Shown here: one piece after another, positions 1-64,000 of the stretch
Layout of the letters: every line of letters begins with the position of its first letter
Position numbering within the stretch: position 1 is the first letter of the stretch
From: Acrasis kona
Taxonomy: Eukaryota > Heterolobosea > Eutetramitea > Acrasida > Acrasidae
Assembly (NCBI GenBank): GCA_026419775.2
Contig: JAOPGA020000476.1
Span: forward strand, 1 to 64,000
DNA: 64,000 bases
Direction: 5' to 3'
Notes under the pieces: model-generated
The model's input: only the letters and a program-made list of their open reading frames with translations
What the model was told of the DNA's origin: nothing
Databases searched by the model: none
Program-made: the position numbers and the translations under genes

Positions 1-1
1 A

Positions 2-838
2 CAAGCATATCATATTATACAACTTAACCACGTTCTTGATGATAAGTTTGATTGGTCTAAGGCATTTAATGAGACACAGATATCGTTAGACCTTTTACAA
101 GTTATTGAAACTTTATCAAAGACAAATCAAAACTCAGAAAATTCAATTCAAACTATCAAAAGTTTAATTGAAACAAGATGGAATTCCCTTGGTGTTTTAG
201 CAAGCATATTATCTGGAAGATGGAAAGCATTTAAAGGGACAGCTCAATTTTTTACAAAAGGGTCACAAGTAAAAGAAGGAAGGAACACATCATGGACAGA
301 TGTACTGGAGTTCTTTGAAGATGAGAAAATGGAGTTGTGTGTACATATAATTGCTGATTTACAAGTACAGTACTTTGCTCCAATGTTTAATCGTTGTCGT
401 CAGTATAATGGTTATGTAGCAGACAAGATGAAAAAGATTGTAAATGATGCATTACAGTCTATAGAAAATTCAAAGATTGATGACAGTATTGTTTTTAACT
501 ATTGTCATCAATGGATTGCTGAAAAATCTGTGGAGTTGAAAAATATGTACAAAGAAACAAGAATCAATGTTTGTAATGCAATAATAAATGAACACAAAAA
601 GTTCTTTAGTGGTTGGATAGACCCTAACCATCCTCTGTATTATGCTTCAATTGGCTCAAATGAATACTGTATTGAGGCACTTCAAAAATTACTTACATCA
701 CTTTATAATTCTGTTGATGTTGCTGGCTTGTTACAACACAAGGAAATAATAACTCAAGTTATTGAAAAAAAAATAACCTTGTGGCCAAGTTACGACGATA
801 TCCGTCATAATAGAGTTGATGAAATGTTGGACCTTTAA
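2..838 (+). mobile_element. hAT-like transposase fragment, cut by window edge
   Basis: An open frame runs from the left edge of the window to a TAA at 836-838, at least 278 codons; the first ATG (329) lies far inside it, so the true start is outside the window. Around positions 170-200 it encodes a T-R-W-N-S motif, which is typical of the central part of hAT-superfamily transposases (the RWNS motif precedes the alpha-helical insertion domain). The remainder is a hydrophobic/charged alternation without a recognised zinc finger. No terminal inverted repeat or target-site duplication is visible here. Neighbouring sequence to 9 kb is full of other transposon debris, including a BED-finger hAT piece at 7.8 kb. 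Family assignment rests on one motif and general composition, so it is moderate; the element may be intact upstream or already decayed. Confidence 0.5.
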
Positions 839-840
839 GA

Positions 841-1230
841 AACCATTGGTGCTTTGTGATTGAAAATCTGCTCTCATTTCTTCGACATGATGGGCATGGT
901 ACTGGAATTTTAAAAGATAAGAGCCTAATGCATCATCTTCATGTTCATACACTTGTTGATGCGTTTGATGTTCATATACAGGACCTTGATACATCTCCAA
1001 TCACTTTAATATCAAGGAGAATTTCTACAAAGATTATTGAATGCGAGGACTCGGAGAACAGCGATACGCTTGTTTATTATCATGGTAAACCTTGCAGAGG
1101 TGATCCATATAAAAGATCAGTTATTCGCACAATATTTGGACAAGAATATGGTAATGTAAAATATTACTTTTGTGTTACTGTTAATGGATGCTTATTCTAC
1201 AGCAAAATGTACTCAAAAGCGAAACAATGA
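841..1230 (+). other. ORF fragment downstream of hAT piece, no ATG
   Basis: This frame is open across about 130 codons directly after the hAT fragment but in another frame, and has no ATG at its head (the earliest start-like codon is GTG at 856). It ends at TGA 1228-1230. The product has several His/Cys-rich patches but no motif I can name. It may be the continuation of the same element after a frameshift, or a second degraded transposon protein. From 1252 another start-less frame continues into the duplicated segment at 1362. I see no evidence that it is expressed. Confidence 0.3.
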
Positions 1231-1361
1231 GTATCATATCTTGCTGAGCTATTGATCCCAAAAAAATCAGGAAGGTCTAAAGCTGCAAAGGTTGAGGGCA
1301 GAACAGCAGAAATACAAGTGTTCATCAAGATTGAAGAATACAGCTATGCTATTGTGAAGTT

Positions 1362-1811
1362 GTTCTCAAGCCTCTTTCTGTACTCCAAAAAATATCTACA
1401 ATACTCATGGAAACTTCCCGTTCCATTTGGACCGCTCGATGTGTTTACAAGGCAAATTGTGAACACAAGCAATCACCTTTCTTAGGACATACCTGTGGTA
1501 TTAATATCTTTTAGTTTTGATGCTGTGAAGTGAAAGTGAAACTGATTCTTCGCCTAATGAACTGTAAAGAAACCGATGGTTTGTACAGGACTTCGCCAAA
1601 CAATTGCTCAATAAAATGTTTGATAATTATATATCTTTTGAACAATACTAATAGAATGTTCATTATACAATACCTAATTACGTTTAGAACACTCTTTATA
1701 CCATTCAATGAATAGGTAATATACACAATAAAATAGTCTTCACGCTCATGACATGTATATTGATGACTTCATACAAGTCAACTCAACTGTGTCACTTACA
1801 ACCATTTCGGT
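1362..1811. repeat. Dispersed duplication, copy 1 (partner 7083-7534)
   Basis: Three blocks of this stretch recur in the same order at 7083-7534: a roughly 170 bp block (1362-1534 with 7083-7283), a 24 bp block (1567-1591 with 7438-7461) and a roughly 80 bp block (1727-1811 with 7463-7534). Identity inside blocks is very high, with a deletion of about 30 bp in copy 1 near 1482 and unrelated sequence between blocks. Both copies lie beside transposase remnants, so they are likely parts of one non-autonomous or decayed mobile element. Confidence 0.8.
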
Positions 1812-1989
1812 GATTTGTATATATAATTTTTTTGTGTAAGGTAACTCATCAATAACCATTGACGGGGGTTTTAAAACTACCAATAAACTATCAAGCTTAT
1901 CCCTGTTTTCAAAAAACCACCATTTGGAACAACAATAAGTTCAGCTCCATTTGTAATATCAGTTGATCGTAGGCAATCAAAACATTCAT

Positions 1990-2484
1990 ATGACAACAGG
2001 CACTGACATTTCACCTACACTATCTAGAACGGTACATGCTCACAAGTGCTCATATTGTACCGATATATTTCCTCGCCCAGGAAGACTTTTGGAATACTTG
2101 AGAAGAAAACATCCAGATCAAGACCATAACATAATCGGTGCACAATACAAACGGTTAAAGGAAAAACCTATGGATCATGTCGAGGGGCTAATTCTGCAGT
2201 TTCAACAAGAGGGTACTAGTTTTTTAAGAAACAATGTTCCAGACAAATGCCAGTGTAATCAAATACTAGCGGATCTGATCTATTTCTCAATCTCCCAAAC
2301 TTTAAGGAAGAGGAGAATGTCGATGACAACAATGATGATGACTTTAAGGAAGAGGAGAATGTCAATAATGAGGTTAATAACGATGATGTGGATGAAGATG
2401 ATTCAACGTGTGGTTTTTAAGAGCTTTTATGAAAAGAACTCAAATTACCTTGTGGGTCAAATTTCAAAAATATTTTTGATTTGA
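1990..2484 (+). CDS. Short ORF with degenerate C2H2 zinc finger
   Basis: From the ATG at 1990 the frame encodes 164 residues. Near the N-terminus there is a C-x2-C pair followed after twelve residues by Tyr instead of the expected first His, then the second His four residues later, so the C2H2 finger has lost one zinc ligand. The C-terminal part is created by a 42 bp tandem duplication (2299-2340 and 2341 onward) that yields two copies of a short basic peptide and many Met residues, which looks like out-of-frame translation. The segment 2228-2332 is also repeated at 4688-4785. Probably part of a mobile element rather than a host gene. Confidence 0.3.
   Translation: MTTGTDISPTLSRTVHAHKCSYCTDIFPRPGRLLEYLRRKHPDQDHNIIGAQYKRLKEKPMDHVEGLILQFQQEGTSFLRNNVPDKCQCNQILADLIYFSISQTLRKRRMSMTTMMMTLRKRRMSIMRLITMMWMKMIQRVVFKSFYEKNSNYLVGQISKIFLI
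2228..2332. repeat. Dispersed repeat, copy 1 (partner 4688-4785)
   Basis: About 100 bp here, beginning gaaacaatgttccagac, recurs at 4688-4785 with scattered substitutions and small indels. Both copies end just after a stretch reading aatgtcgatgacaacaa. They sit in the transposon-rich left arm and probably derive from the same element. Confidence 0.8.
2299..2363. repeat. 42 bp tandem duplication
   Basis: The unit starting actttaaggaagaggagaat occurs at 2299 and again at 2341, 42 bp apart, the second copy diverging after about 23 bp. The downstream partner repeat at 4688 has only one unit, so the duplication is specific to this copy. Confidence 0.8.
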
Positions 2485-2592
2485 TTTTTGTTATCCAAGA
2501 CAAATATGGACAGATCTTACAACAAACAAAAGTAAAATCAAATTCTGACATTTAATCGAATTGATATAGGTTTTTTAATTGATACCCTATTA

Positions 2593-3330
2593 TTAATTAA
2601 TCATCACCACTGTCCATATTATCTTCAACAGAGTTACGGTCAGATCACTATCAGAGTCACTATCAGAGTCACTTTCTGAGCTGCTTTCAGAGTAGTTTTC
2701 AATGCGACTGTTATGTTTTCTCATCTTCTTGTCTTTTCTCCTTTTCCAATTTAAACGGTATTGATAAATGTTTTTGAATACAATACTTCTCATTTCTTTA
2801 TACCACTTGTTATGATCACTGTCATCTTCATTTTCTATTACACTATGGACATCAGCCCAAGAAGTCCATCTTGTTCTTTTTATTTTTGACTGACTGTAAA
2901 AATTTCCTGGAACTGAGTATGTTGCTACCCGTTTGTTTATATCACTGAGTTTTTGATAGAGAGATGTTGATTTCTGAACACGGTTTTGATCTTTTGTTGG
3001 TTCACAAGACATAGAGCCTATGTGACCACTTATATTAGTGTGTGGATCATGTTCTACATACTGCCAATCCTCCACCATCTCTAAAAAATCTGCCAAAATG
3101 ACTTTGTTTTCTTCTATTGTCTCTCTTAATTTTTTTTTAGCATTTTCATTCTCCTGTGAAGTTTGAGAATTCTTCCATCGATACATCCACTTATAAAACG
3201 ATACATCATTTTTGGTAATGCTGTATTTTGTATTAAGGACTACTTTTATGCTAGTACCTTTTGAAATGGCTTGACCTTCACAAATGCAGCATTTTGGTTT
3301 TGGTTTACCCATATTTACAATACTAGTCAT
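2593..3330 (-). CDS. Hypothetical protein with acidic Ser/Asp tail
   Basis: The first ATG of this reverse-strand frame is at 3330, giving 245 residues to the stop at 2593. Near the N-terminus there is a C-x-I-C pair followed by a basic region; the C-terminal third contains an Arg/Lys patch and then alternating Ser-Asp/Ser-Glu runs (around 2640-2690), followed by a hydrophobic end that looks like read-through of AT-rich DNA. I recognise no family. Its position between transposon repeats, with no conserved domain, makes a mobile-element accessory protein as likely as a host gene. Confidence 0.35.
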   Translation of the reverse strand: MTSIVNMGKPKPKCCICEGQAISKGTSIKVVLNTKYSITKNDVSFYKWMYRWKNSQTSQENENAKKKLRETIEENKVILADFLEMVEDWQYVEHDPHTNISGHIGSMSCEPTKDQNRVQKSTSLYQKLSDINKRVATYSVPGNFYSQSKIKRTRWTSWADVHSVIENEDDSDHNKWYKEMRSIVFKNIYQYRLNWKRRKDKKMRKHNSRIENYSESSSESDSDSDSDSDLTVTLLKIIWTVVMIN

Positions 3331-3420
3331 AAAAATGGAACAAGTCAAGTTTTAGTGCTGTTATTATGAAAACCTAGACAGGTCAAAGAGATTTGAATTT
3401 AAAATTTAAAATTTTATTTT

Positions 3421-3930
3421 CTATGCTGTTGCAACCCACACATCATCCCTTAACCTTTGCTCTGTTACTTGNCTGTACTTTACTTTTGCGGCCCCGTTGA
3501 ATTCGTATAAGATTAATTTCACATCTACATAATAAGACCTTAACGTATTGTAAGCAGTTCCATAACAATCGCCATGGTAATTTATGTACCATTCTTCTAC
3601 CTCTTGTTGTTGTAAGGCTGGGATGTTGTTGGCAAATGTGTATGTGTAGACTCTCTCCGGGATCTTTATACCGTTCACTTTGGTGNACTTGACACTTTGG
3701 TCTCTTTTGACACCTGGCTGCCTGCCAAAATANTTGTCNAAAACTAGAAAGTTGGCCCCTCCCATTGAAATTGTTGGAGCTTTAGCTGTGGTTTCCCCNT
3801 TTTCAACATTTGGCTGAACGCGTCTATGCATTTCTTTGGCCATGTTTGAACAGAAAGACGTTAGTTCCCATTCCATACATAACTTTACTTCTTCACTAAG
3901 CCCCTCTTCTTCAAGCTGCACGACCGGCAA
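3421..3930 (-). CDS. Hypothetical ORF containing all the window's ambiguous bases
   Basis: A reverse-strand frame of about 169 codons ends at 3421. It has no ATG at its upstream end (the codon at 3930 reads TTG), so it is a fragment or a downstream exon; the first Met is about 18 codons in. Five ambiguous bases (N at 3472, 3686, 3733, 3739, 3799) all fall in this ORF, and nowhere else in the 64 kb. The protein is of ordinary composition, rich in Tyr and Val, with no motif known to me. The Ns suggest a collapsed multicopy or polymorphic sequence, which fits a repeated element. Confidence 0.35.
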   Translation of the reverse strand: MPVVQLEEEGLSEEVKLCMEWELTSFCSNMAKEMHRRVQPNVEXGETTAKAPTISMGGANFLVXDXYFGRQPGVKRDQSVKXTKVNGIKIPERVYTYTFANNIPALQQQEVEEWYINYHGDCYGTAYNTLRSYYVDVKLILYEFNGAAKVKYXQVTEQRLRDDVWVATA

Positions 3931-4271
3931 GTTCCTTCATTGTTCCGCCCAATAGATGTTATTGAAGTGGTTTTTGTTGTATAAGGTAAATTTTACTGTG
4001 TGTTTGGAGGTTTGTTTTGGCATGTTTTCTTGTTGTTTTGGGATGGGGGGATTACATGCTTGCTTTTATGCAGTCTGTTATTCGTCTTCCATTTTTGGAT
4101 TGCATGTATTTTTCAAAAAATTTGAGTTTTTGTATGAAATTGAACACATTGTCCTGTCCACCAAAACAATCCTCCAGCTCAATTCAATGAAGGTAAAAAC
4201 TAGATTATAAAATACTTAACAATGATTATAGATTATAAGGTTGAGCAAAACCTGCAGTTAGAATAGCGGTC

Positions 4272-4370
4272 AGGTTGAACAGATTAGAGGAGGAGAGGCA
4301 ATTCAGGTTGGACAGATTAGAAGAGGAGAGGCAATTGAGGTCAAACAGGTTAGAAGAAGAACATGAAGAG
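4272..4370 (+). repeat. Three 33 bp tandem repeats encoding an 11-residue heptad-like unit
   Basis: Units at 4272-4304, 4305-4337 and 4338-4370 are imperfect 33 bp repeats. They lie in an ATG-less open frame (about 4266-4442, stop TAA at 4440) and encode R-L-x-R-L-E-E-E-R-Q-L/F type units, a charged helical repeat like the C-terminal tails of many transposon-encoded SANT/Myb-like proteins. The reading frame looks like the last exon or the decayed end of such a protein. Confidence 0.6.
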
Positions 4371-4442
4371 AGGCATCTAAGGTTTTTAAATCAATGTTTA
4401 CAATTAGAGACACTAATTGCGGACCAAGGTGTAGAAATATAA

Positions 4443-5589
4443 ACGAATAACATTGGTATAAATGTTAGCCGAGCAAGAACCACCAACAAAAAAAAGTGAA
4501 ACTGGAGTAAGTCGCCCCACGCGCGTCCAGCCACTATAAAAGGCCTACAACACATCTGTATAAATAAATTTTATAATAAATATATAGGTTTATTGGGTAC
4601 AAGTGTTGTGTAAACGAATCATCATCCCAAAGGGTCGAAGGACAGTGTCATCTTGACACAAAATTTTTTCAAAAAAGAGCGTTGGACGAAACAATGTTCC
4701 AGACAAACGCTAGTGTAGATATACTAGCGGATCTATTTTTCAATCTCCCAAACTTTAGGGAAAGGGAAAATGTCGATGACAACAAACTTTTTCAAAATAG
4801 TACCACATATAAGGTCGTTTCGAATTTCAAATAACAAGCCAGAGCTTATCAAAGGATATTCAATTTGGACGAAGTAATCTGATGTTGATAAATCCAAATT
4901 AAACCCGATTGTTTTGAATGGTCAAATTATCCACTTTGACATTATACACAAATCTCATATATATACTTGGTCGACACTTTCTGCGTACTGTTTATATGAT
5001 GTTTCATACTGTTCGTTGGTTGTGCTGATTTTGCAAAATTATTCTAAATGTAATTATTTATTTATTTATTTATTTATTTATGTAAATTAAACCTGTATAA
5101 ATAAATAAATAATTTAATAATTATCTATATAAATAAATAAATAAATAATTACATCTAGAAGCCGGCGGCTCTAAAAAAAAGCATTGGAGAATATAGAGCT
5201 CTAGGTGTATAACCTGCCCTAAAATCTTTTTGATGGTAGACAATAAGATTGTTATGGGATGCTGCGATCCAGATGAATGCACATAAGAAGGTGTTCAACA
5301 TCCAGCGGGCAGGCGCCAGGGAATATATCTGGTTTTTGCTAGATCTAGTGCTGAAGCTGTTAAGTTTCATAGGGTTTGGAATTGGAATTCGCAACTTAAT
5401 CCTCGGTAAATAAATATTTTTGGTGACTATTATTTATTTAATCTTAATGATAATCCCTCGTTAGACCATTTTTTTAAATGTAACAAAGAAGTAAATCAAT
5501 ACAGGTACTGCATTTTGGTACCTTTACCCCTAAGGACAAAATTTTTGGTAATTTTATATTTAGAAAAAGATAAAAATATTTATTTACAA
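4443..5589. other. Non-coding stretch with repeat debris and an AT-rich palindrome
   Basis: No convincing gene. It contains the second copy of the dispersed repeat (4688-4785) and an imperfect inverted repeat, 5049-5085 with 5126-5153, in which tgtaattatttatttattt is mirrored by the complementary ataaataaataattaca with a loop of about 40-45 bp. The palindrome could be a MITE end or a simple-sequence hairpin. Confidence 0.5.
4688..4785. repeat. Dispersed repeat, copy 2 (partner 2228-2332)
   Basis: Matches 2228-2332 over almost its whole length, with a short deletion around the cagtgta segment and substitutions near the 3' end. It lacks the tandem duplication of copy 1. Confidence 0.8.
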
Positions 5590-18733: not shown

Positions 18734-19424
18734 ATGAACAGAGGACTCAAAGTTCTAGGTACTCATAATTTATAAGCAATATCATAAATGATTAGTTTTA
18801 GGGGATTCTAATGTTGGTAAGACATCCATTATTAGGAGGTTGGATAAGAACGAATTTGTTGAGAACTATTTTCGAACACAAGGACCTAAAACCACTGCTA
18901 TCCATCACAACAAGACCGAAATTAATTTTGTGGATGTACCAAAAGAGCAAGTCTCCGGTAACCACTTACAATCTTCAAGATGTGTGTTAATAGTGTACGA
19001 CATCACGAATGCAAGTACTTTCGCGAATGTAGGGAATTGGTGGAACATGATTGTAGACTACAACCATGATGCGAACATTATAATTGTTGGAAACAAGAGC
19101 GATATGAGCGGCATGCAATCAGTTCCGTCAGAGGTAGGCAGAAAGAAAGCAACAAACTACGGAATACCATTCTTTGAAATAAGTTGCAAAAACAACTCTC
19201 AAATTGCGGCAGTGCTTGACAAGATTGTTCAAATGAGCACAGTTGTAAGCATTCCGCTTGAGGTAACCGTGCCATTCAAAGTACACCGCAACATTGACAT
19301 CATACCTTTTTGGCGATCTACTTTATCATTTCTTACTTGTAACGCTGTATTCAGCAATGATGTAAAATATACACCTCTACTTTCTGATGATGGTGAGGAT
19401 CAAAATAATATACCTATGCAGTAA
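18734..19424 (+). CDS. Divergent Ras/Rab-like small GTPase
   Basis: Two exons, 18734-18758 and 18802-19424, joined across a 43 nt intron that lies inside the P-loop codon, giving 215 residues. G1 reads G-D-S-N-V-G-K-T-S, and G4 reads G-N-K-S-D, with E-I-S-C-K as G5, so guanine binding is likely. In place of the G3 D-T-A-G-Q-E motif there is V-D-V-P-K-E-Q: the Asp is present but the Gly and catalytic Gln are absent, suggesting slow or no hydrolysis. The switch I region is short. No C-terminal prenylation Cys is visible; the tail is acidic. Most like Rab/Ras-like proteins of amoebae; exact subfamily unresolved. Confidence 0.8.
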
Positions 19425-37687: not shown

Positions 37688-40026
37688 TTATGTATTTGTT
37701 TCATAATAATGGTCGTGTATGGTTTTTGTTGTTTTTGGTGCATATTTCGTTTTGAGTTGTTCCAGTTTGTTAAGACCATATGGATCTGATGCGTCTGATG
37801 AGATGCTTCTTGTTGTTGTGGTTGTCTTTTTGGATCCTTTCATGAGTTGATCATAAGCAGATTGTTCGCTGGACCTTCTCTTTGCATCAATAGATTTGGA
37901 TGGTCTGTGGGTTTGTGAACCAGATATGGAGTAGGATGTGCTGCTTCTTTTTGGAAGAACGTCTTGGGGAGGTGATAAGGTCTCAAAATTCTTCCTTCTT
38001 CTCTCCGTTGATGTAGGCCGCAGCTTATCGTAAGCAATTTTAGAGATTATATCATCTCTTATTACAGGTGAGGCATCAACGTTGTAGATTATTGAACGGG
38101 GTGAATTTGTGGATTTGGTGGGACTTGATGATGTGTTAATTGGTGATGTAACGCCATTATATGATGATCTAGTTTCTACTTTTGATTTCAATGTAGTGAT
38201 ATCAATCCCTACATCCCTAAGCTTTAATGAATGCCCCTCAACAAGCCTCTTCAAGTGCTCCATATCGTATTCTACTTTTATCTTGCTATACCTCTGCTCC
38301 TTCAAAACTTCATCTATTCTTTTATTAATATCCTCATGCTCATACTCGATTTGAGCAACTCTATCTTTTATTTGTTCGACGTTACCTTGCATAGATCTCA
38401 TAATCTCCTTCATCGCTATGACTTCCATTGTAATTTCAGATATTGATTTATCTCTCTTGCTGAATTCATTTGTAGATAATGTGTCTTTGTTGTGAATCCA
38501 TTGTTCTATCTCGTTCATTCTGGACCAAAGTCCTTTAAGCTCCTGTACAGCCATATTCTCATTGTTCTCTACTACAGATTTTATTTGTAGTATTTCTTTT
38601 TTGCTAACATCTCTTAGTGTGTTCAGTTGTTCTATCATGTCGTCTATCTTTCTGCCTCTGGGGGAGTTTTTTTGGTAGTTTGTTTCATGTTGTTTGGCTG
38701 TCTCGTTCATTTTCAGCATTCTAGAATAATCAAAATTATCCATTGGGCTTGAACCGGTTCTCCCATCCATAACAGCCATTCTGAAGGGGCTTTTAACTAT
38801 ACTGAGCCCATTTGGCATAACTTGAGTGTGTCTCCTCTGCAATCTTAAACTTTGGTCCTCGGGCGAAGTTATCCTCATATCTGGTGTTCTAGATCTTTTT
38901 TCAGGTGACTTTATACTATTTGTTTTATTTTCAGTCGGAGTAATTGTTCTTTTCGATTTCCTCGGCTCTATGTTGTCTTGTGTAGGATTAGACGATTCAT
39001 CCTTGGATGGAGTATCGTTTTCTTTGATTGGAACTTCAGGTAGCTTTTTGCTCTCAGTCTTGTCTTCCTGAACCAATGGGCTAGCTGCTAGCTGGCTCTG
39101 TTCGTTCTTTATATTTATTGCTTCCTCTACTACAGGTAGTGTAGGCAGAGGCTTTCCTAATGTAGTTGTGATATTTGAAGTAATGGTACTGTCGAACGAT
39201 GCGTTCAGCACTGGTTTTGGCTTTTCTTGCTCTTTTGGGAACATTGTTGGGAAGTTTCTTATTACTGTAGTTACGAAAGAATTTACGGAGGCAGTTCCGG
39301 CAAGTAGCTTAAATCTATCTTCGATCGTACTATCTTTAGCTAGCTCAAGTGTAATTACGGTAGGACCCCAACAAATAGCGAGATTAGAGGCATCCATTGC
39401 GTATTCATCAATTTTTGTAACAGAATGCAAGTATTTGAACACGTGTAGTATAACGTCTCTGTTGATAACGGGTAAGTCTTCAATCAACTTTTTAGACTGT
39501 TCTATCTTAGTTTCCTCATTTATATCACCTTCACTTTGTTATGATTATTAAAAAATCTACACTTACCACCAATGGCAACGACAGATGCATAGGCATTGTA
39601 AGTGAACAACGGTTCAGGCAGCTCTCTGAAAAAAGATTTAAGTAGAGAGCAGAGGTCATTTGTATCACATTCCTTAAACTCAATATGCTTGTCTTATCAA
39701 ATTAGTATTCGGGGAAATTTTTAATACCTGTATTTATGGAGTCTTTTAGCATGTTCACTTTCATCATGTTTCCAACTTCTCTAAATATACCTCTACATGG
39801 TGATCTATTTTCTATTTCTGTAATCAAAGTATCTACTATTATCGGAATATTGCTTTGATTATTGAAGTGGATATGCTCATATTGAACTCTCTCATCCAAA
39901 GAAACACCAAACGTTGGGTACACTTGTAGTGGGCTGTCAGATTTTCTACCACTACCTTTGGTAACCTTCTCTCGAACTTCAGTTTGTCAGTTACTGCACT
40001 TGAATCGACTTACGCTTCTTCCACAT
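37688..40026 (-). CDS. RhoGAP domain and coiled-coil protein
   Basis: Four exons, 40014-40026, 39728-39976, 39567-39692 and 37688-39528, with introns of 37, 35 and 38 nt; the first exon is only 13 nt and codes M-W-K-K plus one base. Product 742 residues. The RhoGAP domain spans about residues 25-215: F-G-V-S-L-D-E, then G-I-F-R-E-V-G with the arginine finger, L-L-K-S-F-F-R-E-L-P-E-P-L-F, and the N-L-A-I-C-W-G-P-T-V segment. The remainder is Ser/Thr/Lys-rich with a long coiled coil about residues 400-530. It should accelerate GTP hydrolysis on Rho-family proteins; a conventional Rho target fits, since the Rho-like fusion at 57.9 kb has lost the catalytic Gln. Confidence 0.9.
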
Positions 40027-52372: not shown

Positions 52373-53672
52373 TTAATCTTGTTCTTCTTCTTCATCTTGT
52401 TCATCTTCTGCTTGTTCTTCTTCTTCTTCTTGTGGTTCGTTATCTGGTTCGTAATCTAATCCTCCTTGAATGTAATCGAATCCGTATTCTTCAAAAGTTG
52501 ATTTTACGAAGCCACTCGTTTGGGAAGGAGTGGGTGCATCCCATAATACTGGCACCTAACCATGCGCTAGTGATTGGATTGTCGCAGGATGTGACATTGA
52601 CTGCTCCCTTTAATGATCTCTCTTCTCTTTGTTCCTTGGTCTCGTCGAGTTTCTCCTTTTTGGTTTCGTACCATGTTGATTGTTTTCCTTGTTTTTTGAC
52701 TTGTTTAATTGTGTATAGATTTTGTTGTCCCTTGATCTCTGTTTGGAGTCTTGAATTGAAACCTTCGAATAATGTACTTCCTCCGCATACAACAATGTTT
52801 TCACGCATGCGGCTACGTAAATCCATTGCTACTTTTGAAATGGATTCCTTCACTAGATCAACAACTCCTGTTTGTTCATTGCCGATCATGCTTGGGTTGA
52901 AGAGAATTTCTGGTATTGTGTATAATTCCTGTTCAAGTGTGATTTGAACTCCATCTGGTAATATGTAATGTTTTTGTTTCTGTTCAGGAAGCAATTCTTG
53001 TCCTTCAAAGTCGGGCGAGACGAAACATAACTTTTCTTTGATGTCTCTTGAAATTTGTTTTTCTCCCGAACTCTCCAAGGTGTATCCTTTTTCTGTTAGC
53101 ATCCGAACAAGATGGTTTGTTAGATCTCTACCACCGGTTCCTATTTGTTGGATGGCGTGCAAATCTACAAAGCCCTCAGCAACTGGCACTGCATTAGCTC
53201 CACTGTCACCAACGTCAAGTACGATACCAGTGGTGCGACCACTAGCGTACAAAGACATAAGCTGACCTAATACTAGCTTTACTTTATCAAATCCGAAAGA
53301 TTCGAAAAGTATTTCATACCACTTTTGTTTACTTACATCAGAGTTGAAAGGTGGTTCTGTGATAAGTGCTGCGTGGTCTTCAGGGAAAATTTGAAGTTCA
53401 TTATTGAAAGTATGTTTCATGAGCAACTCCATGTCATCCCAATTAGTTACAACACCATGTTCGATAGGACTTCTCATCGCAAGTAATCCGCGTCTACTTT
53501 GTGCTTGCTCTCCAACATAGGTATCTCTGCCACCTATGATACCTGAAAGAACCGCTCTCTCCTTGTGCCTTCCAACTAAAGTGGGTATGATGCATCTTGG
53601 CTCATCCTCGCCCGAGAATCCTGCCTTGATCAAACCTGCACCAACATCAACAATAACAGGTGGTTGTGACAT
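52373..53672 (-). CDS. Divergent actin-related protein, frame break near C-terminus
   Basis: ATG at 53672; the frame to 52491 codes 393 residues with the actin fold: V-D-V-G-A-G-L-I-K-A-G-F-S-G-E-D-E-P near the start (phosphate 1), L-D-V-G-D-S-G-A-N-A-V (phosphate 2), I-G-T-G-G-R-D-L-T, and V-V-C-G-G-S-T-L-F-E-G-F. A Lys/Gln/Glu-rich insertion of about 45 residues (52600-52740) separates this from the C-terminal N-P-I-T-S-A-W-L-G-A-S-I-M. The normal end continues in another frame, open from about 52555 to 52373 and carrying F-V-K-S-T-F-E-E-Y-G then an acidic tail, so a one-base shift near 52511-52514 (or a tiny intron) is needed. Orthology to a named Arp is not clear; neither canonical actin nor Arp2/3 fits. 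Confidence 0.75.
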
Positions 53673-53991
53673 TGACGTTTGTTTGTAAAGTATAACCTTT
53701 TACAATCAAAATGGTTTATAAAGTAACAGGACAAACTTTTTCATTGGTATTTATTGATGGATCTCTGTACATAGTGTTTTATTCTCATAATTATAAGCAT
53801 TCCAAGATAATCCTATTAGTAATAGTATTCCGTTTGTTGAGGTGAGACTTTTGTCAAGAGTGTATGCCTTTTATATGAACGAATGCTGCATTTGTGATAA
53901 GATTGCAAAACGCCATTTCAAGAGTGTATACCCTCTAGATGAACAAGTTCCACGGTACTATAAATACAGAACATGCTATGTAAATAATATA

Positions 53992-57197: not shown

Positions 57198-57857
57198 GCG
57201 GTCCTGTTGGGACTGCGCCTGCCTGGTGAGCAACTCTCGATGACATCATCATATGCTCCTGTGGTTGACCTGATCACGTTCACAACCCTTTCTTCGGCTC
57301 CCAGTATAAGGTTTGGAAACGCTTTAAGGTTTGAAGTAGTTATGAATGAAACTTTCTTGTATTATTTGCAGAACGGAGGCTTGACAAGAACCAATAAAAG
57401 CGTTTGCTGTTGTGGTCAGTTCAAAGAATGAAAATGTTGTGATTGGCACTGTAAATTATTTTATGTACATCGATGTTCCTGTTATAAAATGTGTAAAACA
57501 AGACAAATCGTCAGTGTACATCATGAATTTTACACATTCAGTACATACAAAATCAAGTTAGTACATCTAGGAGAGCATGGCAATGTAAGATCAATGATGA
57601 ACAAGATTCCCTGTCGATAATGACTTTGAGTTTAAACAGTACTTCAGGAAATCAAATCTTGATGTGTTATTGGTCGATCAGTCCTTGGAGGCACATATTC
57701 TGTTAAGAGATTTACTAAGTATTAATGCTGTAATGTTGTGTAAAAACTATGAAGTGGAAGGGAAATTAAGATTTAAATTGAAAAACCAAAATAACTATTA
57801 GTGTTTAAGTTATTTTAGTTTCGTATCTTAACCCAGACAGTTCAAATACAACATAAC
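57198..57857 (+). other. Low-confidence stretch before the fusion gene
   Basis: An open stretch of about 65 codons (57598-57801, TAG) reads as a plausible protein, with L-L-V-D-Q-S-L and a basic C-terminus, but no ATG or upstream exon joins it in phase. No other feature seen. Confidence 0.2.
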
Positions 57858-59381
57858 ATGTTTTTCGTTCTAGATGAAGACGTACAAGATGTCTTATCCA
57901 AATGCCTGTGCTTTAGAGAACAAATAAAAGGATTCTTCGCTCCTGATATCACTGATAAACAAAGGACCAGTAGCACAGAGAATGATAGCGGGTATACCAA
58001 TAACGACATTAAGCAACAATTTCAAATTCGAATCAACAAAACCGAGTTTTGTGATGACAACCTTAGTCAATTAGGACTTGCCGCATTCTCATCTTGCTTT
58101 TCATACTGCAGACAATTTCTAATCAACTGGATTCAAACACATCAAAATAAAGCAAACATCACAACCTACCTAATGGACGCATTGAATAAATTTACAGATC
58201 CCACCTTTTCAGTACTCATAGCAACAGAATACTATAGCCACAGTGACGCTATAAACTACTGCCCACCTCATTTAGATAGTGGATTAATCACTTTATGTGT
58301 GTATCCGGAAGAGGGCCTCCAATTGTACAGTGAAGAGAACCAAGCGTGGTTGAACGTTAATGGTCCTAATAAATTTATTTTACTTTTTGGTGAATCTCTC
58401 CAACAAATAACAAATGGCATTGCTCGTGCTAATCTTCACAAAGTTTCTAAAACATCAGTCAACAGGCCCTCACTTGTTTTCAAATTTAGAATGGACCCAG
58501 CTATACTCGGTCCTCGAAATCTGTATGATTACCAAGCCATCTTAGAAGGAGAGCAAAGAAGTGTATATAATCGTGACGAGTCAAAGATGCCAGTAGATGT
58601 GCTAGAGATGGTTTTCTTGTTCCTTCCTTACAATAGTATTTGCACTTGCGAGTTGGTCTCAAAGCACTGGAAAAAAGTGGCTTGTTCGAATTATATATGG
58701 AGGGAGCAATATAAAATGTATTATGGAAAAAATGATGTGATATTAATAGTTGTATCTTGGAAAGATTTTTTTATTAATAAAGTTTGCACGAAACCAAAAC
58801 ATGAACTCCTTCACTCACTGTCTAAATGTGTGTTTGGTTTAATAAAAGTCGATCTCAAACTTGTGGTTGTTGGTGACGGTGCAGTTGGAAAGAGCTGCGT
58901 AACTCTTGGGTTCGCTTTTAGCAGAATTATCACACATAGGATGACGCCATTTAATAATCACACAGTTTTACTAACAATTGATGATGCTCGTGTGCATTTC
59001 ACATTGTGGGACATTGCTGGTTCAACACCTTTCAGCAAGCATTCAAGACATTGGCACTACACTGAAACTGATGTGTTTTTGATTTTGTTTTCTGTGGATA
59101 ATAGAGCCTCCTTTAGAAATGTGAAGACAAAGTGGATGCCCGAACTCAAGAATTATAGCACAGCCCCCGTAATTCTTGTCGGAACTAAAATAGATAAAAG
59201 AAAAACCGAGGATTGTGTAGTATTTGGTGAGGGTTTGGAAATGGCGAAGGACATTGGAGCGTTTGGATATTTTGAAGTATCAAGCTTAGACTTCGAAGGT
59301 GTAGATCGTCTCTTTCGCTGTGCTGCAAGAGTAGGATTGCACCACTGCATCGACATTCCTTATTTAAGCCGTCAAGTGTAG
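57858..59381 (+). CDS. 2-oxoglutarate oxygenase, F-box and Rho GTPase fusion
   Basis: Single exon, 507 residues, ATG at 57858. Residues about 110-215 are an isopenicillin-N-synthase-type 2OG-Fe(II) oxygenase core: P-P-H-L-D-S-G supplies H138 and D140, N-L-H-K-V supplies H194, and R-P-S supplies R203/S205 for 2-oxoglutarate. Residues about 243-290 form an F-box: M-P-V-D-V-L-E-M-V-F-L-F-L-P, then L-V-S-K-H-W-K-K-V and W-R-E. Residues 333-507 are a Rho-family GTPase: P-loop G-D-G-A-V-G-K-S (339-346), W-D-I-A-G (384-388), T-K-I-D (443-446). The GTPase lacks the catalytic Gln, since W-D-I-A-G is followed by S-T, and has no CaaX box. I know no described protein with this order. Convergent with the NHL protein gene, with an 18-base coding overlap at the 3' ends. 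Confidence 0.88.
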   Translation: MFFVLDEDVQDVLSKCLCFREQIKGFFAPDITDKQRTSSTENDSGYTNNDIKQQFQIRINKTEFCDDNLSQLGLAAFSSCFSYCRQFLINWIQTHQNKANITTYLMDALNKFTDPTFSVLIATEYYSHSDAINYCPPHLDSGLITLCVYPEEGLQLYSEENQAWLNVNGPNKFILLFGESLQQITNGIARANLHKVSKTSVNRPSLVFKFRMDPAILGPRNLYDYQAILEGEQRSVYNRDESKMPVDVLEMVFLFLPYNSICTCELVSKHWKKVACSNYIWREQYKMYYGKNDVILIVVSWKDFFINKVCTKPKHELLHSLSKCVFGLIKVDLKLVVVGDGAVGKSCVTLGFAFSRIITHRMTPFNNHTVLLTIDDARVHFTLWDIAGSTPFSKHSRHWHYTETDVFLILFSVDNRASFRNVKTKWMPELKNYSTAPVILVGTKIDKRKTEDCVVFGEGLEMAKDIGAFGYFEVSSLDFEGVDRLFRCAARVGLHHCIDIPYLSRQV

Positions 59382-62300
59382 TTCGACGTCGTTTGGTGAG
59401 CTGGGTGAATTTGGCGATGGGACCTTGGTGTATGCAGTATTTTGATTGCTTGGTGATGTTGTCAAGTTCACGGATTGTTTTTCTGTTTGCTTGCCTCCAC
59501 CACGTACAATGACAACCACGACTATAACAAGGACTACTAACAAGACAATAATAATGACAGCTCCAGCGATTGAACCAATAACAATACCTGCGATCTGACC
59601 TCCAGTCAATCCACCATTACTTGCTGGCGTGGCAGAGCTAGTGCGATCGACTTGCACTGCAACATAATCAGTAGTGTGATTACACGAACAAGAAATTCTA
59701 TCGACCATCACTTGCAAAGTCTTGCATCCATAATTACTATAGTCATTGATCAATGGATTCCAGAATTGACATTCATAGTTGTTGCTCGTGTTGAATTTTC
59801 CAGGAATGGTGAACTTTACATCAGACGTCAATGACTTTAAAGAAAAGGCAGCATCGCAGTTTTCACCGAGATGTATCACGAATAAATTTGACGCTACGAC
59901 TTTGGATGAAGTGTAAATGTTATTTGGCAAGGACATTGCTTTGAAATCGAGAGCAGAGCTACTGCTTCCTAATCCACCAGCGTTAGTAGGAACGATCAAT
60001 TGTGCAACGTTAGTGCTGTTACCGATAGTAGTTCCATCGGATCCAACGTTAAATGAGTAACCTTTGGCAACCAAAACCTTAATAGTAGAACCAATCACTG
60101 CTGGTGCATCACCAGGGCTCATTCCATAAGCAATTCCATCCATCACATTACAAGCAGAGTTGTAAGCCTTTTTAGCTAGCGATACGCTTTGAGCAACCGA
60201 ACGACTACTTCCAGAGAAGGTACTTGTGGTGGTCAAACTGTTTACAACATCAAGAATGATAGAGCTAGTATCGAGCGACAGGAGACCTTTAGAAATGGAC
60301 AACATGCTTTGGATGTTATCCATGGCGTCGGATCTAGCATCAGTGGTTACTGTATCAGGATTACTCACAATAGCTCCAATATTGGTTATAGTACTACCGA
60401 CCGAAGAATCCAAAGCAATAGCAGCAGCGCTTCCTTGAGTAACGTTTGCTGGAATGAATTTAAATGCATTTGAAACGAGCATAAGAGCACTAGTGATGAA
60501 CGTCTGCTGAGCTTGTAATTCCGCAGCGGTGAATCCACAATCAGATCCAGTAAATCCACTATTGCAAGTGCACTTTCCACTACTACAGCTTCCACGATTA
60601 AAGCAATCATTTGGACATGCTCGAGTTGATGAACTACCAGATACACCTTGTTGAGCAGCGACGTTTCGTCTAGCTTCGTTAATCAACGTCACGGCAGCTG
60701 ATATCAAATTAATAATAGCAGGAGTAGGTGCAGAAGTGAGAGGTGCGTTATTGATTTGATCAGCAAAGTAAGAGGTCACTGCTGTGCTGTTTGTGTTGTT
60801 GGCGGCACTACCTATACCAGGGATCACGATCGCACCAACATTAAAAGTAGTCGAATTGGATGCACTGTAGCCCAATCCATTACGAACAACCACCACAAAA
60901 GTAATACTACCACTTCCAGCAATATAAGGAATGCTGATGGTTACCGATGTGTTGGATGAAGCTGGGTTTAAAATCTTCGGAGGTCCATTGTAAACGTAAC
61001 TGTACTCATAGGTCAACGACGAAGAAGTATCGCCGATTATTGGATCAGAGTCACTAAAGCCGACTGAAGTAGCTACGATGCTTGATAATGGTGCTCCTGT
61101 AGATGCACTCAATGATAAACTTCCAGCGACTATTCTATTATTTACGTACGAAACTGAAATGGCATTGCTACCAGGGTTATTTGATGTTGAAATCTTGACG
61201 ACACAATTAATGCCGTAGATACCAGCTACAAGAGTATTCGCTGGTATATACAACGTAGCTTTATCGATTGCAACGCTCGAAGGTAAGCTTGTAGAAGTAC
61301 CATCTGATTGTAAAACTGTCCACGAGTAGGTCGCTCGAGATGGTTCGTATGAGGAGCTCACTGGCACTGCAGTTAAACTCAAACCAGAAGATACAGAAAT
61401 ACTTCCTGACTTTACGCCTGTGATAATGAACACTGGAACTGCTCCATCAACTACGATCAATGTAATTTCGGCGTAAACGTTCATTGTCGTTGATTTTAGG
61501 GTAACTCGTACGATGAAAGTTCCTGCAATCTTTGACGAAACTGTTTGAGTGAGAGAGTTGGTAACAAAATTGAATGGACAATTATCGGGAGTTGTGCATG
61601 CCCAGGTGGTATTTGCTCCCGATGGTACATCAGTGACTGTTGCTTTTAAATTGATAGTAGATCCAACGGATGTTGTGATTTTACTTCCTTGATCAATTTT
61701 GATGGATGGTGCTCTTGGTGGAATAAATGATGTAGGTACTGGTGTTGATGTGGGTACTCTGGTGGAAGTAGGTGCTGCAGTAGATGTTGAATCGGGTACT
61801 GCAGTAGATGTGAACATTGGAGTCAAAGTAGATGCAGTAGATGTTGAATCAGGTACTGTAGTAGATGTAGAGGTAGGAGTAGGCGTTGGAGTAGGTGTAG
61901 GTGTTGAAGTTACGATGGTTGTATAATTTGTGGTGACTGCTCTGATGCGATCGTTATATGTATCTGCAACATAAACAACATTATTGGCATTATCTTGTGC
62001 CACAGAAGTAGGATAGAACAACAAGGCAGCATCCGCCGCAGCCGGTCCACCATCACCACCAAAACCTTGCGCACCATTACTACCACCAGCAAATTTATAA
62101 ATATTTCCATTAGATCGATCAATCACTCTAATTCTATGATTATCATACTGTGCAATAAAGATTAGATTATTAAAACTATCCACAGAGATTCCATAAGGTT
62201 TAGAAACAGGTGCATTAAGAGCAGGTCGAGTGTCACCGAAATTACCTGCATAAGTAGTTCCAGCAACCAACGATATAGCACCACTCGATCGGTCGACTAC

Positions 62301-64000
62301 TCTGATTACATTATTATCTGAATCTGCAACGTAAACTAAATTTCTAGGAACGTCTACTGCGACGCCCAAAGGACCTTTCAAATTGGCACTCGTAGCATTA
62401 CCGCCATCTCCACTATAACCACCGGTCCCCGTACCAGCGAAAGTGTTGATCGCACCGGTCAATCGATCAACCACTCTGATGCGATGATTGGTACTATCTG
62501 CAATATAAACGAGATTGTTAGCACTGTCTACTGAAAGTCCATATGGATATCCTAGTTTGGCACTCGTAGCATTACCACCATCTCCGGTGCTACCTGCTAC
62601 ACCCGTACCAGCAAACGTAGAAATGTTACCAGTTAATGTATTTACTACTCTGACTCGAAAGTTATCAGAATCTGAAATGTAGACCAGGTTGTTGGAACTA
62701 TCGACTGCTAGTCCGTAGGGTCTGGTGATTTGAGCTCTGGTGGCTGCTCCTCCGTCCCCACTGTAACCACTGGTGCCCGTACCAGCGAACGTGTTGATGA
62801 TGCCGCTGGTTCTGTTGATAACTCTGACGCGATTATTGTCAATGTCTGCAACGTAGATGAGATTATTGCCAGCGTCGACGGCGATCGAACCTGGATGATT
62901 GAGTTGGGCTGTATTAGCAGGTATGTTGTCGCCGTTGTATGTTAATAAACCTGTTCCGACGACGGTGGACATGGCGTTGCTGGTGACGTTGACTGCTCTA
63001 ACGCGGTAGTTCAAGTATTCTGCAATGTAAACGAATCCATTCACGTTGTCGACTGCAACAGCAGTAGGTCTGTTGATTTTGAAATTTTTGGCGGCACCTT
63101 CTCCGTTGTAACCGGCTTGGCCCGATCCAGCAAATGTGTTGATGATGCCAGTCAACCGATTGACTACTCTGACGCGGTGGTTGGATGAATCTCCAATGTA
63201 AACGAGATTTCTAGTATTGTCGATGGCAATACCATTTGGCTGCCATAATGTTGTTTTTGTGGCTTGGACACCATCTGAAGTGAATTGTGGGTATTGGTTT
63301 CCGGCAAATGTTGTGATAATTCCACTCGTACGATTTACTACTCTCACACGATTGTCTGTTGTATCTGAAATGTACACGAGGTTGTTGTCGGTGTCCACGG
63401 CGAGTTTGCTAAGACTGAGCATGGATCCTAATGTAGCATCACCGCCATCTCCGTCACCACTAAGTTGACCATTTAGAGCAAATGTGGTGATGATTTTAGT
63501 TGTCGTGTCTACTACTCTGACGCGCAAGTTTCCAGCATCTGCAATGTAAACTAGATTATTGGTAGCGTCGACTGCAACAGCACTAGGATTACTTAATCGC
63601 GCGCTTGTGGCAAGACCGCCGTCTCCGGCAAAACCACGCGCGTTCGACCCGGCAAATGTGGTGATGATACCTGTTTTCCTGTCCACCACTCTGATGCGAT
63701 TATTGTTTGAGTCTGCAATGTAAACTAGATTGTTGGTAGTGTCGACTGCAATACCGAAAGCACTATTTATGGTGGCTTTGTTAGCTGCGGCACCATCTCC
63801 ACTAAAACCTTGAACTCCTGTTCCGGCGACAGTTGTTACGATACCACTGGAAACGTTCAAAACTTGAAGTCTGTTATAATTGGTGAGTATGTAACAGAGA
63901 TTGCGGATGCCGTCATAAGCGAGGTCAGTAGGTTGTACTTCAGATACTACTCCTTGTATGTTCTCCCCTATGTAGCCTTTGAGTCCCGTCCCTGCAATGG
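59364..64000 (-). CDS. Giant NHL/REJ/EGF/GPS single-pass membrane protein, partial
   Basis: The reverse frame is open from the right edge of the window to the stop at 59364-59366, at least 1544 codons; the N-terminus is outside. From N to C it has about twelve NHL/beta-propeller-type repeats (61920-64000, each with a N-x-L-V-Y-I-A-D-S-x-N-x-R-I-R-V block and G-T-G-x2-G-Y-x-G-D-G), a Thr/Pro/Ser-rich stalk (61735-61920), Ig/PKD- and REJ-like beta domains (60830-61700), one EGF (60530-60610: C-P-N-D-C then C-x-C-x-S-G-F-T-G-S-D-C), a GAIN/GPS region with C-x-F/W-N-P and C-N-H-T-T-D (59650-59800), one transmembrane helix (59510-59610), and a short Ser/Pro-rich cytoplasmic tail. This is a cell-surface adhesion or signalling receptor of a type multiplied in heterolobosean amoebae. 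Confidence 0.9.
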   Translation of the reverse strand, partial: IAGTGLKGYIGENIQGVVSEVQPTDLAYDGIRNLCYILTNYNRLQVLNVSSGIVTTVAGTGVQGFSGDGAAANKATINSAFGIAVDTTNNLVYIADSNNNRIRVVDRKTGIITTFAGSNARGFAGDGGLATSARLSNPSAVAVDATNNLVYIADAGNLRVRVVDTTTKIITTFALNGQLSGDGDGGDATLGSMLSLSKLAVDTDNNLVYISDTTDNRVRVVNRTSGIITTFAGNQYPQFTSDGVQATKTTLWQPNGIAIDNTRNLVYIGDSSNHRVRVVNRLTGIINTFAGSGQAGYNGEGAAKNFKINRPTAVAVDNVNGFVYIAEYLNYRVRAVNVTSNAMSTVVGTGLLTYNGDNIPANTAQLNHPGSIAVDAGNNLIYVADIDNNRVRVINRTSGIINTFAGTGTSGYSGDGGAATRAQITRPYGLAVDSSNNLVYISDSDNFRVRVVNTLTGNISTFAGTGVAGSTGDGGNATSAKLGYPYGLSVDSANNLVYIADSTNHRIRVVDRLTGAINTFAGTGTGGYSGDGGNATSANLKGPLGVAVDVPRNLVYVADSDNNVIRVVDRSSGAISLVAGTTYAGNFGDTRPALNAPVSKPYGISVDSFNNLIFIAQYDNHRIRVIDRSNGNIYKFAGGSNGAQGFGGDGGPAAADAALLFYPTSVAQDNANNVVYVADTYNDRIRAVTTNYTTIVTSTPTPTPTPTPTSTSTTVPDSTSTASTLTPMFTSTAVPDSTSTAAPTSTRVPTSTPVPTSFIPPRAPSIKIDQGSKITTSVGSTINLKATVTDVPSGANTTWACTTPDNCPFNFVTNSLTQTVSSKIAGTFIVRVTLKSTTMNVYAEITLIVVDGAVPVFIITGVKSGSISVSSGLSLTAVPVSSSYEPSRATYSWTVLQSDGTSTSLPSSVAIDKATLYIPANTLVAGIYGINCVVKISTSNNPGSNAISVSYVNNRIVAGSLSLSASTGAPLSSIVATSVGFSDSDPIIGDTSSSLTYEYSYVYNGPPKILNPASSNTSVTISIPYIAGSGSITFVVVVRNGLGYSASNSTTFNVGAIVIPGIGSAANNTNSTAVTSYFADQINNAPLTSAPTPAIINLISAAVTLINEARRNVAAQQGVSGSSSTRACPNDCFNRGSCSSGKCTCNSGFTGSDCGFTAAELQAQQTFITSALMLVSNAFKFIPANVTQGSAAAIALDSSVGSTITNIGAIVSNPDTVTTDARSDAMDNIQSMLSISKGLLSLDTSSIILDVVNSLTTTSTFSGSSRSVAQSVSLAKKAYNSACNVMDGIAYGMSPGDAPAVIGSTIKVLVAKGYSFNVGSDGTTIGNSTNVAQLIVPTNAGGLGSSSSALDFKAMSLPNNIYTSSKVVASNLFVIHLGENCDAAFSLKSLTSDVKFTIPGKFNTSNNYECQFWNPLINDYSNYGCKTLQVMVDRISCSCNHTTDYVAVQVDRTSSATPASNGGLTGGQIAGIVIGSIAGAVIIIVLLVVLVIVVVVIVRGGGKQTEKQSVNLTTSPSNQNTAYTKVPSPNSPSSPNDVELHLTA

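Follow-up and report, generated by a model that had tools for sequence, protein, structure and literature searches.

A 2-oxoglutarate oxygenase, an F-box and a Rho-like GTPase domain in one chain in Acrasis kona and other protists

Introduction

KDM2A and KDM2B are demethylases in which a JmjC-type 2-oxoglutarate (2OG) oxygenase and an F-box are carried in one chain together with chromatin domains and without a known GTPase. In Dictyostelium, in which oxygen-linked SCF control plays a part in fruiting, JcdI is an F-box dioxygenase whose dependence on O2 is physiological, and its overexpression lowers the O2 that is needed for fruiting (PMC9485057). RhoBTB3 acts as a scaffold for VHL and the prolyl hydroxylase PHD2, and ubiquitination of HIFα is enhanced by it (PMC4931677). 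The pairing of an oxygenase with an F-box and that of a Rho domain with a cullin adaptor are each known elsewhere; in the protein described here, one chain contains all three.

The protein is encoded by Acrasis kona (Heterolobosea), an amoeba with aggregative fruiting of its own (PMC11589745), in a stretch of 64,000 nucleotides (hereafter, the window). An initial annotation of the window had read one uninterrupted frame as a fusion of 2OG-Fe(II) oxygenase, F-box and Rho-type GTPase, and had known of no described protein with this layout; likewise, our searches of the open-access full-text literature, supplements aside, listed no description of it. In the main text of the Acrasis kona genome paper, supplements aside, the terms ‘F-box’ and ‘oxygenase’ are absent (PMC11589745); in that of the Naegleria fowleri genome paper, F-box, BTB and RhoBTB appear in the reference list only, although its supplement may treat F-box/GTPase fusions (PMC8296547).

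Results

Domain layout of the window gene

The fusion held up: a single exon encodes an oxygenase, an F-box and a GTPase domain of Rac/Rho-like type, each above its Pfam cut-off (Table 1). The oxygenase is of the IPNS/DAOCS type (PF03171; 38.5 bits against a curated cut-off of 23), two profiles match the F-box (35.9 against 20.5 and 39.5 against 24.3 bits), and neither BTB nor JmjC is among the nine Pfam families that match at E ≤ 1. Structure prediction, which had been proposed as a check, gave a double-stranded beta-helix for the oxygenase part and a fold that is Rac/Rho-like by Foldseek for the GTPase part. The solved structures nearest to the oxygenase are SO_2589 (which has no assigned role), ethylene-forming enzyme, DAOCS and thymine hydroxylase, none of which is known to be a protein hydroxylase, and the solved matches of the F-box include those of KDM2A and KDM2B. 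For the Rho part, the best solved match is Rac1 (E = 5.3e-31), and the best 60 of 883 matches to solved small GTPases are Rac, Rho or Rho-like. The Rho insert after TKxD is absent (an 11-column gap against Rac1) both here and in the paralogue described below, and we therefore call the domain Rho-like. The P-loop and TKID are retained, Ser stands where Gln61 is expected, and the chain ends in SRQV, without a CaaX motif.

Residues 302–507 recur with 100% identity on contig C952, positions 1–5258 of which match window positions 58761–64000 at 99.2% identity, as a second haplotype or a recent duplicate. Among the other window genes, a scan of 10 of the 29 frames of at least 180 residues found a second small GTPase (18792–19421; Ras family, E = 5.6e-28), a frame with a partial RhoGAP match (37691–39538; residues 7–62, E = 1.9e-9) and an actin-family protein of 402 residues (52494–53699; E = 1.3e-93).

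Table 1 Positions of features in the window and of further F-box fusions in the Acrasis kona genome
Feature	Sequence	Position	Strand	Remark
Whole coding sequence, P0001, 507 aa, single exon	Window	57858..59381	+	
2OG-Fe(II) oxygenase fold, residues 1–226	Window	57858..58535	+	Pfam core 123–208 = 58224–58481
His138	Window	58269–58271	+	Iron triad
Asp140	Window	58275–58277	+	Iron triad
His194	Window	58437–58439	+	Iron triad
Arg203	Window	58464–58466	+	R-x-S, for 2-oxoglutarate
Ser205	Window	58470–58472	+	R-x-S, for 2-oxoglutarate
F-box, residues 243–285	Window	58584..58712	+	Pfam F-box-like E 4.9e-10, F-box E 5.8e-9
Rac/Rho-like small GTPase domain, without Rho insert, residues 334–491	Window	58857..59330	+	Pfam, Rac1 match, Foldseek
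Scrambled switch I–II segment, residues 350–403	Window	58905..59066	+	Against C849 paralogue
Ser389 at Gln61 position	Window	59022–59024	+	
Stretch common to window and C849 paralogue locus, in pieces	Window	57291..59361	+	blastn
Non-homologous tail	Window	59362..59381	+	LSRQV-stop against paralogue KKKKCTVQ
2OG-FeII_Oxy_3 + F-box	L053	1384–3072	-	
2OG-FeII_Oxy_3 + F-box	L055	1641–2501	-	
2OG-FeII_Oxy_3 + F-box	L057	1465–2964	+	
2OG-FeII_Oxy_3 + F-box	L054	2070–3362	+	
F-box + Rho-like GTPase, 478 aa	C85, L031	245–1681	-	CGIM end
F-box frame, then Ras-like frames	C808, L046	970–2048	-	Ending KKCMVM
Ras-like frames, then F-box-like frame, same strand	C591, L047	1161–2294	+	One gene or two

A conserved three-domain family

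Searches of approximately 5.8 billion proteins, made in other organisms for the three-domain protein only, returned nine members beyond Acrasis (P0004, P0006, P0052, P0053 and P0054–P0058) with 22–42% identity to the window protein. No match (E ≤ 1e-5, 1e-5 and 1e-3) was named as a Naegleria protein, in searches that were based on five-residue words, limited in length and answered mostly by nameless matches. Together with the window protein and a second Acrasis copy (P0003, on contig C849), the nine relatives form an alignment of 11 rows, from which a third Acrasis sequence (P0002) was left out as allele-like and shortened; most of the 11 are less than 45% identical to the window protein. The same fusion thus occurs beyond this gene, with all three domains above the Pfam cut-off in nine of the 11 aligned proteins (the C849 paralogue and seven of the nine relatives included). 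Taken singly, the oxygenase reaches its cut-off in ten proteins, the F-box or F-box-like profile in all 11 and Ras in nine; P0056 and P0058 have no Ras match above the cut-off, and P0058 has no oxygenase match either. The iron triad (HxD...H) and R-x-S, which had been assigned to H138, D140, H194, R203 and S205, are invariant in all 11 rows, P0058 included, and these residues together with purifying selection (see below) make a live 2OG active site likely. In a tree of the oxygenase–F-box part, P0004 and the Acrasis proteins group together (100/100), apart from the other eight. A viral origin was rejected, as 62 pattern matches in viral contigs yielded no relative by tblastn. Judged by sequence, the window gene is one member of a family conserved among protists, in which a 2OG-Fe(II) oxygenase is followed by an F-box, then by a GTPase of Rac/Rho-like type and finally by a CaaX-like end.

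Within the GTPase part, Gln61 is found in five of the seven readable rows, with Ser in the window copy and Asp in P0057; the count would be five of eight with the unreliable Asn of P0054, the gene call of which leaves homology right after DTAG, and P0055, P0056 and P0058 have no homologous sequence at this column. All five homologues with a complete C-terminus possess both the catalytic Gln and a CaaX-like end (P0003, P0004, P0006, P0052 and P0053, with the ends CTVQ, CIVQ, CTVN, CLIN and CNLQ), the C-terminus being reached by only four of the nine non-Acrasis proteins. The initial annotation was therefore correct that the window copy keeps the P-loop and TKxD and misses the Gln, but this loss is untypical of the family. 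P0054–P0058 stop short of the GTPase part or soon after its start, possibly where gene callers met introns: homology is lost right after DTAG in P0054 (that is, at the site of the intron in the C849 gene), a few residues later in P0057 and earlier in P0055, P0056 and P0058. Position 12, which can be read in ten rows, is Gly in six and otherwise Val, Thr, Thr and Pro, so poor hydrolysis may recur in the family. P0052, which has the Val, also carries AQTD in place of N/TKxD, so that its GTPase part is naturally altered; among solved sequences it is closest to a Rac2 entry with the same P-loop Val, against which it shows a gap of six columns at the Rho insert. Given AQTD and the altered position 12, the switch of the family may not cycle.

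Origin of the window copy

The C849 paralogue has 518 residues and is 83% identical to the window protein. Its gene contains a 43-nt intron (GTATG...TAG) directly after DTAG, and its product has canonical TVFD and DTAGQ; the best 60 of the 169 matches of its Rho part to solved structures are Rac, Rho or Rho-like. Homology between the two loci begins upstream of the window gene and ends just 5' of the codons for the polybasic-CaaX end, and the last codons of the window copy have no counterpart at the C849 locus. On the basis of this alignment, the window copy is a duplicate, which appears to have lost its prenylation end because the duplicated stretch stopped short of it. We infer that the window copy, rather than the C849 copy, is the derived one in the Rho part, with which the outgroups agree. 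Elsewhere in the window, 112 bases (3383–3494) match, at 81% identity and in opposite orientation, the DNA immediately upstream of the C849 paralogue, and are probably a dispersed repeat.

Gene conversion was rejected as the source of the scrambled switch segment, as no matching donor was found in the assembly other than C952. Approximately 25 nt of the segment align weakly with the C849 intron, with a run score that is reached in 1.6% of 5000 intron shuffles, uncorrected (35% for the downstream exon). This is no more than suggestive of an exonised intron, in which part of the old intron would have become coding and displaced the Gln.

P0002, a database protein of Acrasis kona that is known from its protein sequence alone, is 98% identical to the window protein, leaves the frame and ends inside the Rho part. 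It is encoded on a contig of 6402 bases, and no such match occurs in G000. It may represent a sequencing error or a decaying allele; an error is conceivable because the frame change lies near T runs and the assembly was built from 454 plus short reads (PMC11589745).

Selection between the two Acrasis copies

Comparison of the window and C849 copies gave dN/dS of 0.30 for residues 1–115, 0.17 for the oxygenase core (dN 0.04, dS 0.24) and 0.03 for the F-box (residues 236–290), which, with a single coding difference, is the most constrained part; the switch segment reached 1.08 (dN 0.62, dS 0.57) and the C-terminal half of the Rho part 0.87. Coding differences are fewer than silent ones in the oxygenase core (Fisher, P = 1e-5) and the F-box (P = 1.4e-4), and the same test gave P = 0.78 for the whole Rho part. 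The oxygenase core and F-box evolve as under purifying selection, and none is detectable in the Rho part, although such pairwise counts cannot place all of the constraint on the window branch. This pattern suggests that the duplicate held the enzyme and docking module largely intact and released the GTPase.

When polarised by outgroups, 20 of the 33 changes in the switch segment fall on the window branch and two on the C849 branch (11 not resolved). The corresponding counts are five and three in the C-terminal half of the Rho part (6 of 14 not resolved), five and none in residues 1–115 (5 of 10) and five and two in the oxygenase core (3 of 10). Beyond the Rho part, the window branch is again the busier when the last two regions are pooled (ten and two, eight not resolved), and relaxation may extend past the GTPase. 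With no detectable constraint and without Gln, canonical switch regions and a prenylation end, the window Rho part has the look of a degenerating or pseudo-GTPase.

Other F-box fusions in Acrasis kona

The genome holds at least 78 F-box matches. On C427, C643, C746 and C835, a 2OG-FeII_Oxy_3 domain is fused in front of an F-box, that is, in the order of the window protein but with an oxygenase of another family. No GTPase matched in the three of these frames that were scanned for domains (L053, L055 and L057; C643, nearly identical to C427, was read only). The C85 protein has an F-box followed by a Rho-like GTPase, as in the window protein, with Pro at the Gln61 position (after AG) and without a match to an oxygenase, and the F-box and Ras-like frames on C808 are probably one intron-containing gene. 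In Acrasis, F-boxes are thus found joined to oxygenases as well as to GTPases.

Discussion

Domains that are fused frequently serve the same pathway, and the family consequently predicts that oxygen and 2-oxoglutarate status, Rho-type signalling and the degradation of proteins are directly linked. Given the F-box, an SCF adaptor is the obvious interpretation, as had been proposed from the sequence together with a hypothetical oxygen-dependent ubiquitin switch. We suggest that the family comprises SCF adaptors in which the oxygenase is active and the Rho-like module tethered to membranes, and of which the window copy would be a soluble, switch-less offshoot, and regard the chances of this as evenly balanced. 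The F-box would dock the protein on Skp1–Cul1, the prenylated Rho-like part would place the SCF at membranes and, when GTP-bound, would capture partners, and the oxygenase, using O2, 2-oxoglutarate and Fe(II), would hydroxylate the captured partner or a nearby protein, by which recognition or turnover would be tuned. The window copy would most likely act as a soluble oxygenase–F-box protein with a residual Rho-like scaffold. Acrasis kona does possess a Skp1 gene (C849:38957–39100, E = 1.1e-27), the product of which retains the stretch NDFTPEEE, the site that PhyA hydroxylates in Dictyostelium. Given its nearest solved structures, the oxygenase could instead act on a small molecule; we prefer an SCF adaptor that sits at membranes and carries an oxygenase of its own, because the layout fits the partial systems represented by JcdI and RhoBTB3.

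Several other readings, which overlap such that their probabilities need not sum to one, can be weighed against this. The oxygenase may be the output, with the F-box mainly setting turnover of the protein itself and the Rho-like part serving only as a membrane address, without a separate substrate for ubiquitination. The same role has been suggested for the F-box of JcdI, the overexpression of which lowered the O2 threshold through catalysis and not through the F-box (PMC9485057), and neither position 12 nor Gln61 of the GTPase is strictly kept; on the other hand, the constraint on the F-box (dN/dS 0.03) is perhaps beyond what self-turnover would need, and we consider this account possible, if somewhat unlikely. 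A more elaborate form of the adaptor model is, in our estimate, unlikely as a whole: a single-chain coincidence detector, that is, an SCF receptor that would ubiquitinate a partner only when GTP loading of a membrane Rho-like domain and O2- and 2-oxoglutarate-dependent hydroxylation coincide, as an independently evolved one-protein counterpart of human RhoBTB3–PHD2–VHL, with GTP hydrolysis repeatedly lowered across lineages and with full and switch-free soluble versions in Acrasis kona.

The drifting Rho part, the severed CaaX end, the excess of resolved changes on the window branch in the N-terminus and oxygenase core, and the broken frame of P0002 could together mark the window copy as a pseudogene in the making. 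We think this rather improbable, as the oxygenase core and F-box are free of stops and their coding differences are far below the silent ones, dN/dS for the window core would still be well below 1 (as estimated from 5 of 7 resolved changes, if silent changes split evenly), and the frame change in P0002 may be an error. The initial annotation had further proposed that, in the window copy, the ligase is under the control of a Rho module that is loaded with GTP and probably poor in hydrolysis. Ser at the Gln61 position, the retained P-loop and TKID, and the repeated alteration of hydrolysis residues among family members (four of ten rows at position 12; Asp at Gln61 in P0057) would suit such a module, but the scrambled switch I–II, the missing anchor and a Rho part without detectable constraint point to decay rather than tuning, and we consider the proposal improbable. 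A chimeric assembly or chance frame is scarcely credible, given that the recurrence of this layout in the C849 copy and among relatives at 22–42% identity rules it out for this 454 plus short-read assembly (PMC11589745), barring identical mis-assembly everywhere.

The family offers a single small protein for testing a link between oxygen, Rho and degradation, and Acrasis, with two natural versions (that is, with and without switch and anchor), provides a ready comparison. KDM2A and KDM2B likewise unite a 2OG oxygenase, of the JmjC type, and an F-box in one chain. JcdI and JcdH are similar in that the F-box protein is itself a 2OG dioxygenase, belongs to a social amoeba and is linked to O2, but their JmjC domain lies C-terminal to the F-box and no GTPase is described for them in the account of these proteins (PMC9485057), whereas in the Acrasis protein the F-box is preceded by a fold of the IPNS/DAOCS type and accompanied by a Rho-like domain. 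In O2 sensing by PhyA and Skp1, a 2OG oxygenase is again coupled to the SCF, but as a separate protein that modifies Skp1 (PMC9485057). In RhoBTB1–3, a Rho-like domain is fused to a cullin-ligase adaptor, and RhoBTB3 additionally carries a CaaX motif and cooperates with PHD2 and VHL; in these proteins, as described, the adaptor is BTB/Cul3 rather than F-box/Skp1–Cul1, the BTB lies C-terminal to the GTPase, and the chain holds no oxygenase (PMC4931677). Human RhoBTB3 gathers, as separate subunits (PHD2 and VHL), activities comparable to those for which the present family fuses counterparts from other domain families.
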